In this document: piece after piece, positions 10,671-15,676 of the stretch | Layout of the letters: every line of letters starts with the position of its first letter | Position numbering within the stretch: position 1 is the first letter of the stretch | Assembly (NCBI GenBank): GCA_903844665.1 | Contig: CAIMUS010000255.1 | Location: 1 to 40,644 of the forward strand | Reading direction: 5' to 3' | Length of the DNA: 40,644 nt | Origin: an uncultured Pseudomonadota bacterium | GTDB lineage: Bacteria; Pseudomonadota; Gammaproteobacteria; Competibacterales; Competibacteraceae | The notes under the pieces: model-generated | What the model saw: only the letters and a program-made list of their open reading frames with translations | What the model was told of the DNA's origin: nothing | Databases searched by the model: none | Translations under genes and position numbers: made by a program

Positions 10671-10722
10671 AATCAGGTCATTGGTGGGGTGCGTTGGCGC
10701 AGCGTAACGCACCTCCCTAATC

Positions 10723-10850
10723 GTAACCGTTCAGACCCCCCACCCCAACCCTCCCCCACAAGGGGGGAGGGAGTTTTTGCAAAACAGCAGCTTAACCTAT
10801 TCCCCCTCCCCTTGAGGGAGGGGGTTAGGGGGAGGGGTGTGAACGTTTAC
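10723..10850. repeat. 128-bp MITE/BIME-like element, copy A
   Basis: The ends are GTAACCGTTCA (10723-10733) and TGAACGTTTAC (10840-10850), imperfect inverted repeats. Inside are two G/C-only hairpins (CCCTCCCCC-ACAAG-GGGGGAGGG type) separated by an A/T-richer GCAAAACAGCAGCTTAACC spacer. The same element is present at 15416-15544 (inverted), 22401-22527 and, truncated, at 40514-40560. Confidence 0.85.
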
Positions 10851-10867: not shown

Positions 10868-10996
10868 TTAGCTTGGGAAAAACGCTTTTAAGATCAACGC
10901 CAGTACACCGGCCAGCACCAGCCCCAACATCCACTTAACCAAGTTTAAGTCCGCCTTAAGTGGCGCCAGTTCGATTTGCAGGTCTTTCCTGGTCAC
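10868..10996 (-). CDS. 42-aa single-TM small protein (coiled-coil/DUF1640-like tail)
   Basis: Starting at GTG 10996, the frame encodes 42 residues. A short charged amphipathic helix (TRKDLQIELAPLKADLNLVK) is followed by one transmembrane segment (WMLGLVLAGVLALILKAFF) and a stop at 10868. This charge-then-TM pattern resembles small proteins of the DUF1640/CCDC90-like type and XhlA-like membrane peptides. The start overlaps the stop of the preceding 82-aa gene as GTGA (10996-10993), so the two are translationally coupled on the minus strand. The peptide is probably an inner-membrane anchor or partner of the 82-aa product. Function is unknown, and the coding call rests on the overlap plus the well-formed TM segment. 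Confidence 0.6.
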   Translation of the reverse strand: MTRKDLQIELAPLKADLNLVKWMLGLVLAGVLALILKAFFPS

Positions 10997-11241
10997 AATT
11001 TATTCTCAATGATCTTATCGATACGCTCAGTCAATTCTACCTCGATAAATAATGCAGAAGCTCTTTTGACAAGTTCTTCAAAAACCTTATCTTCAATGGT
11101 GCCTTCGCGGCGTAGTCTCACCAAGTACTTAACTAAACCGTAAAACCCTTCGACGTGATGGCGAGATTCCAAGAGTTTCCTGCCCGCCGAAAGATCCCTG
11201 GTTGAGAGGATCGCAGGTTCGCTTCGCTTTAGAACAGCCAT
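10993..11241 (-). CDS. 82-aa hypothetical protein, first gene of a two-gene unit
   Basis: The 82-aa protein (MAVLKRSEPAILSTRDLSAG at its start) is predicted almost fully helical, with a central HHVEGFYGLVKYLVRLRREG and a C-terminal amphipathic helix ELTERIDKIIENKL. I do not recognise the family. AAGGGG before ATG 11241 can serve as ribosome site. A possible -10 (TATACT on the minus strand, 11305-11300) lies 59 bases upstream, with poor -35 matches. It overlaps the small TM gene downstream, which suggests the soluble helical protein and the membrane peptide work together. Confidence 0.6.
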   Translation of the reverse strand: MAVLKRSEPAILSTRDLSAGRKLLESRHHVEGFYGLVKYLVRLRREGTIEDKVFEELVKRASALFIEVELTERIDKIIENKL

Positions 11242-11628
11242 AGCTAACCCCTTGTATTTGTTAATGATAAAGTAATAAAAGAAGGATTACCTGGGTAAGA
11301 GTATAACAAGCAATACGCTTTTACAAGCAATCAAGTGTTCACCCGGATTTTGATGCTGTTTATGGCTTGCTCTGGGTACATTTCAATGACGCTATCGAAA
11401 CCCATCCTGGCTGCACAGGCGTACAAGCCGCCTCAACGCCTCATTTTGGTGCACAACGCCCAAACTTAATGCACTCTCCCGCACTGCGGTGAGCCATCGA
11501 ATCCCCCCTAACCTCCCTAGAAAATCCCGTGGCCGCACGGTTCCACAAAACTGTCCAGGCTGGCGCTTATATTGCATGGCGCATTCGATTGAATTAGATA
11601 AAGCCGCGACCGGCAGGACAAAACCCCC
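11242..11628. other. Intergenic stretch between divergent genes
   Basis: It holds the probable promoter of the minus-strand 82-aa gene (TATACT at 11305-11300, minus strand) in an A/T-rich patch up to about 11340, then the leader of glycogen phosphorylase. A TATATT at 11568-11573 might be a -10 for the latter, but no matching -35 is seen. No convincing gene or strong repeat was found here. Confidence 0.4.
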
Positions 11629-15415: not shown

Positions 15416-15544
15416 GTAAGCGTTCACCCCCCCTCCCCCTAGCCCCCTCCCACAAGGGGAGGGGGAATACGCTAAGTAGCTGTTTTGCAATAACTCCCTC
15501 CCCCCTTGTGGGGGAGGGTTGGGGAGAGGGGTCTGAACGGTTAC
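15416..15544. repeat. 128-bp MITE/BIME-like element, copy B (inverted)
   Basis: The ends are GTAAGCGTTCA (15416-15426) and TGAACGGTTAC (15534-15544), with the same double G/C hairpin core as copies A and C in opposite orientation. The surrounding intergenic stretch 15277-15676 contains no gene I can support; its first bases (15274-15293) match 40498-40517. Confidence 0.85.
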
Positions 15545-15676
15545 GATTTGAACTGGAATTCGGCTTGCGCCCGGGCGCAACAGCAGGAGGGAAAGTTAAC
15601 AAAAACGGTGCCGATCTTGAAATACAAGAAATTTTTATCTATATAACCAATAGCTATTAAAAATTCAAATTTTATA

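Follow-up and report, generated by a model that had tools for sequence, protein, structure and literature searches.

We suggest, with a little less than even confidence, that two small overlapping genes in the window (the whole analysed stretch of 40,644 nucleotides) encode a split, membrane-tethered coiled-coil protein, in which an 82-aa helical head is coupled to an orphan stalk-anchor of the DUF1640 family, encoded as a separate 42-aa frame. What was observed is both frames, their 4-nt overlap, the homology of each half, a similar overlap in four of the five relatives of the 82-aa gene, and purifying selection in the history of the 42-aa tail. The coordinates of the features are collected in Table 1.

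Table 1. Features of the gene pair and its junction in the window.
Feature	Coordinates	Strand	Basis
82-aa soluble gene of a small family without a name	10993..11241	minus	predicted helical hairpin (helices 29-45 and 51-81, with a long C-terminal helix); no Pfam or NCBIfam match
42-aa gene with a GTG start, encoding the orphan C-terminal part of a DUF1640/CCDC90-like protein (coiled-coil stalk and TM anchor)	10868..10996	minus	profile match; comparison with L038
GTGA stop/start overlap, a layout used for termination-reinitiation coupling	10993..10996	minus	comparison with the junctions of five relatives
I-V-T-R-K-D beta-layer motif, [aliphatic]-A/V-T-K/R-x-[DE], at the start of the DUF1640 stalk, immediately preceded by TAA and with GTG as the second codon	10982..10999	minus	motif as described in PMC4786415
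Hydrophobic core of the anchor, residues 22-36 of the 42-aa peptide	10889..10933	minus	peptide hydropathy; limits set by eye
Shine-Dalgarno-like AAGGGG before the 82-aa start	11248..11253	minus	sequence

The upstream ORF starts with ATG, 6 nt downstream of AAGGGG, and its product contains no TM-like stretch (best 19-residue Kyte-Doolittle mean 0.73). The downstream ORF starts with GTG, preceded at 8 nt by a weak GAG, and its product has one TM-like stretch (19-residue mean 2.26). The stop of the former (TGA) and the start of the latter share 4 nt. The first-pass annotation had described an 82-aa gene, overlapped at GTGA by a GTG-started 42-aa frame with a single TM segment, and in this respect it was correct. 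For a chance estimate, 187 ORFs of at least 60 aa on both strands of the window, mostly not real genes, were considered. An NTGA overlap opened a 30–60 aa ORF in 10 of them, and the 42-aa frame was the only strongly hydrophobic one (next best 1.05). Homology appears to be better proof of coding in the 42-aa frame than these overlap statistics. Programmed frameshifting across the junction was set aside, as no slippery heptamer of the usual kinds was seen by eye at TTGTGA.

Judging by its homologues, the 42-aa frame encodes the stalk and membrane anchor that form the C-terminus of DUF1640/CCDC90-like proteins, and it is not a new peptide family. The family (Pfam PF07798) includes MCUR1, CCDC90B, yeast Put6 and Put7, and prokaryotic homologues, and its bacterial members are related to mitochondrial MCUR1. 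Head, stalk and anchor are reportedly the terms applied to the whole family, in prokaryotes and organelles, in a 2019 paper in Structure. The relatives of the peptide are the C-terminal parts of such proteins. Using hhalign against a seven-row DUF1640 profile that excluded the window peptide, residues 2–40 (39 of 42) were aligned with a probability of 98.5 and an E-value of 2.2e-15, a value that is flattering because members of the profile had been found with the 42-aa peptide. Six of the rows came from genome searches with this peptide (five class-wide and one weak match in its own genome), and the seventh came from the plasmid tblastn search. By sequence, the profile also reaches CCDC90B (6h9m, E 2.1e-7).

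The closest to the window tail among those compared was a complete, full-length DUF1640 gene (L038) from a genome of the same family (G012), whose last 42 codons encode 30 of 42 residues identical to the window frame. The two sequences differ in 12, 4 and 24 of the 42 first, second and third codon positions, respectively (pN 0.17, pS 0.78); the divergence is mostly synonymous. The purifying selection is placed in their common history, and not necessarily after their split, because the synonymous sites are saturated.

A class-wide search with the 42-aa peptide gave matches in 12 of 369 genomes at E <= 0.01, its own genome included. Among the 12 foreign loci that were read, DUF1640-like ORFs were found in five (L022, L024, L025, L027 and L032), and shorter, longer or unclear frames in another five (L026, L028, L029, L030 and L031). 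Broken DUF1640 genes were seen in two genomes, with an in-frame stop (L021, 1360–1620) or a frame change (L023, 1335–1623), the break lying between the head and the stalk. PF07798 (CCDC90-like) was matched at or above the cut-off by L022, L024 and L025 and below it by L027 and L032; L031 showed a weak DUF7218 match instead. Seven of the nine similar ORFs scanned matched PF07798 at E below 1e-5 (five at or above the cut-off), and on short full-length ORFs this Pfam profile covered the head and early stalk only. The 42-aa peptide alone did not reach the gathering score of PF07798.

The tblastn search with the peptide returned only weak matches: two plasmid records were found at E 0.02 and 0.3, and 13 phage records at E 0.009 to 0.3. 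Only two of these 15 records, from Methylomonas plasmid pUP202 and from phage APSE-1, have a protein annotated as 'DUF1640 domain-containing protein', and in each case it passes the cut-off of PF07798. Against PHROGs, the frame was weakly aligned to positions 141–168 of the 169 of phrog_6701 (E 0.00098), and a match to phrog_1193 'hemolysin' (E 0.16) was taken as chance. In the order of the window's genome, the DUF1640 profile found matches in 14 of 40 genomes at E <= 0.001. Six matches belong to the window's own genome, including the window tail and one copy cut by a contig end.

The stalk in this family starts with a beta-layer motif, described as [aliphatic]-A-T-K-[polar]-[DE] (PMC4786415). 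In the window, TAA is followed by I-V-T-R-K-D, which shows conservative changes at two places of the motif; a V in the second position is also present in L021, L022, L023, L027 and L038. Since GTG encodes the V of this motif, the 42-aa ORF starts where the stalk starts, and holds the stalk and the anchor. The aliphatic residue is encoded 5′ of GTG and is missing from the GTG-started chain, and the N-terminal head hairpin is absent from the frame, TAA lying two codons before GTG. In G020 (L048, 1444–2097), the stalk of a DUF1640-like protein of about 200 aa contains many copies of TKTDI, which closely resembles the beta-layer motif. In G037 (L051, 1081–1722), an unrelated N-terminal part, perhaps phage-like, continues in frame into the second half of a DUF1640 protein (from mid-head through the stalk to the anchor), so that here, too, a DUF1640 tail is carried by a foreign head.

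At E <= 0.01, the class search with the 82-aa protein matched 4 of 369 genomes, including its own and two weak ones, and the single clear relative (E 3.5e-14) was found in the gammaproteobacterium Candidatus Thiobius zoothamnicola (G179). A two-row profile yielded four more relatives (G418, G423, G451 and G584) at E <= 3.4e-16 in the order of G179; the search matched 10 of 195 genomes at E <= 0.01, with G179 there by construction and five weak. Searching 210 genomes of this order with a six-row profile gave the same five, by construction, and a doubtful G561. Based on these searches, the 82-aa protein belongs to a small family without a name, whose five clear relatives all belong to one other order of the same class. 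G561 (L016/L070; E 2.3e-4, then 4.6e-5) may be a distant sixth relative; an overlapping frame then follows, which is not evidently a membrane protein, and G561 was counted neither way. Eight further genomes (G026, G183, G465, G469, G516, G538, G891 and G903) with matches at E 5.6e-4 to 3.6e-3, some with an internal stop, were left out of the count of five; the frames of G026, G183, G469, G538 and G516 were read.

Within the window's own order, the 82-aa gene is full length in its own genome only (1 of 40); 2 of 40 genomes were matched at E <= 0.01, the other gene being partial with an internal stop. A phylum sample was matched by the family in 3 of 398 genomes, adding only two weak ones, and no relative was found in the small samples from the orders of G202 (0 of 2) and G255 (0 of 24). 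There were no tblastn matches to the 82-aa protein in plasmids or phages, nor to its relative L012 in plasmids. The 82-aa protein alone found no match in the genome contig and viral contig collections; the two-row alignment retrieved only the Thiobius locus from the genome contigs, and the six-row alignment retrieved nothing from the viral contigs. Scans of Pfam, NCBIfam and PADLOC gave no match for either frame of the window, and no scanned member of the Thiobius-type soluble/membrane pair reached a Pfam or NCBIfam cut-off. Matches to phrog_22082 for the 82-aa frame (E 0.088) and to S100-A9 for the family profile (best E 0.042) were taken as chance.

The six sequences, including the window protein, share 15 invariant columns, with a core around GF..L.KYL..LRR.G...D..F..L...A.A..IE.E. 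Identity to the window protein is 36–48% in L008/L010, L012, L013 and L014 and 33% in the partnerless L015. The window protein is without the last 8–11 residues that its relatives have, and its end coincides with the start of the stalk. AlphaFold2, run with the two-row alignment, predicted a helical hairpin with a long last helix (mean pLDDT 78, the first eight residues under 50). For this model, Foldseek gave no match in the PDB at E <= 0.001, and the best VIA-align match was to ribosome recycling factor at Z 7.7, a range possibly reflecting only a common arrangement. CCDC90B was absent among the VIA-align matches listed, which is no proof either way. Compared with the DUF1640 head by hhalign, the 82-aa protein scored a probability of 1.6 alone and of 10 (E 0.003) with six sequences. 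As read from sequence, the plan of the DUF1640 head is also a short helical hairpin before the stalk, and the 82-aa protein seems to be either unrelated to DUF1640 or very distant from it.

In four of the five relatives, the stop of the 82-family gene is overlapped by the start of a membrane-protein gene, with ATGA in L012, L013 and L014 and ATGACTGA in L008; the gene in L015 has no membrane partner. The partner contains one strong and one moderate hydrophobic stretch (19-residue means 2.6–3.0 and 1.0–1.4). Its lengths are 146–148, 149, 156 and 80 aa, that is, about 150 aa in three of four, and the 80-aa partner of L014 lacks most of the N-terminal half. Neither the 42-aa frame nor DUF1640 showed detectable similarity to the relatives' partner. 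When the four partners were combined into a profile, no fifth copy was found in 204 genomes of the order, the four themselves matching by construction; six of the 210 genomes were outside the draw, possibly including G451. In Candidatus Thiobius, the pair lies between genes for a Ppx/GppA phosphatase and a polyphosphate kinase (L010, 1265–5939), and in L013 it is followed by a gene for a glutamate-cysteine ligase.

In the five relatives, no DUF1640 tail stands behind the 82-family gene, and the exact pair was seen in one genome only. The annotation had proposed a tightly coupled soluble/membrane pair, to be refuted by a small frame that is not conserved with the 82-aa gene. The coupling stood, as an overlapping membrane gene is present in four of five relatives, but the 42-aa peptide as the conserved partner did not (0 of 5). 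Hence, soluble-plus-membrane coupling is a conserved family feature, whereas conservation does not extend to the 42-aa frame. A membrane protein is the usual coupled partner of the 82-family, and in the window its place is taken by a DUF1640 tail.

Based on the above results, we propose the following scheme for the split protein. The 82-aa product would form a helical-hairpin head in the cytosol; members of its small family are usually co-translated with a membrane partner of their own. In the window, a DUF1640 (CCDC90-like) gene, cut at the start of the stalk, would have supplied its stalk-anchor in place of this partner. Ribosomes ending the 82-aa frame would restart at the overlapping GTG, and both chains would be made side by side. 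The stalk would oligomerise and reside in the inner membrane, serving as a docking site for the last, long helix of the 82-aa protein and thereby keeping the head at the membrane. The yeast homologues of MCUR1 are described as matrix-facing integral membrane proteins (PMC7519068), and by analogy the head would face the cytosol. We infer the reinitiation, the physical association, the orientation and the recombination event, as well as any function beyond membrane tethering. The split protein is favoured because of the predicted hairpin with its long last helix and because 4-nt overlaps are described as coupling translation by termination-reinitiation and as enriched for subunits of heteromeric complexes (PMC10666635). 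Several observations count against it: the pair is present in one genome only, the GAG before GTG is weak, the first motif residue is missing from the GTG-started chain, and in L015 the 82-aa family stands without a membrane partner. The absence of the relatives' 8–11-residue C-terminal tail also counts against it, being what would be expected had the 82-aa frame once run on into the next frame.

The last point leads to the chief rival of the split pair, a single chimeric gene, in which an 82-family head is fused in frame to a DUF1640 stalk-anchor and a one-base shift at the junction arose by recent mutation or assembly error, the working product being one polypeptide. We regard this as a serious possibility, although a less probable one. 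The two frames abut and differ by one base, leaving hardly any gap between the homologies of the two halves. If read through, the predicted long C-terminal helix would be followed at once by L-V-T-R-K-D, which makes a good beta-layer motif. The 82-aa protein stops where its relatives go on, and the draft genome consists of 348 contigs. Breaks also occur in DUF1640 genes, through an in-frame stop in L021 and a frame change in L023, and G037 carries an in-frame DUF1640 tail on an unrelated N-terminal part. However, a random shift would seldom hit the domain junction exactly and there produce the kind of 4-nt stop/start overlap seen in the relatives. In addition, no fused 82-family homologue was present in the genomes searched, where the clear members number only six, the window's included.

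The pair might also be a decaying by-product, with an acquired 82-aa gene inserted beside a DUF1640 remnant and neither product in use. The 82-aa gene is compositionally foreign (GC 44%, GC3 46%; 42-aa frame 50%, GC3 67%; window 61%) and sporadic, and it stands between unrelated metabolic genes, for an aldo/keto reductase and a carbohydrate (glycogen-type) phosphorylase according to Pfam, both on the opposite strand. Truncated or broken DUF1640 genes also occur in other genomes. Nevertheless, both frames are intact, the overlap repeats the architecture of the 82-family, and the tail has purifying selection in its history, though mostly before the split, which makes decay an improbable explanation. 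A toxin-antitoxin-like pair of a small hydrophobic peptide toxin and a soluble neutraliser would agree with the small size, the coupling and the sporadic distribution. We consider it very improbable, given that the peptide is a piece of DUF1640, that neither frame matched in PADLOC, NCBIfam or Pfam, and that the usual partner of the 82-family is larger, three of the four having about 150 aa, and carries a strong and a moderate hydrophobic stretch.

Compared with known DUF1640/CCDC90-like proteins, the 42 aa of the window match the C-terminal stalk and anchor, with the beta-layer motif at the start. They differ in being encoded in a separate ORF, with no head in the same chain and an unrelated or very distant 82-aa gene before it. 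The Candidatus Thiobius-type pair (L008/L010, L012, L013 and L014) shares the homologous upstream gene and the overlapping start of a downstream membrane protein, but the latter is dissimilar to the 42-aa peptide and to DUF1640. The GTGA overlap resembles those of termination-reinitiation pairs with 4-nt overlaps, except that in the window the coupling is a predicted one and involves a GTG start and a tiny second gene. No paper on the role of DUF1640 proteins in bacteria was found among open-access titles and abstract openings.

If the stalk-anchor and the head are indeed encoded apart, with the head coming from another family, the anchor would be a separable module, and the window pair would be a small, testable system for head-stalk assembly. 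It is rather doubtful whether this extends to the DUF1640 stalk-anchor being an interchangeable tethering module, cut at the beta-layer and captured as a free-standing coupled gene by unrelated soluble heads. In addition, our analysis records a small soluble/membrane pair of coupled genes for Candidatus Thiobius and its relatives.

No Rfam match was obtained, and promoter-like sites were at chance level. Right behind the pair, the intergenic DNA contains one copy (10719–10837) of an inverted 119-nt repeat, 92% complementary to a second copy at 15430–15548. The repeat has an internal C/G-rich stem followed by T's, near 10749–10771.
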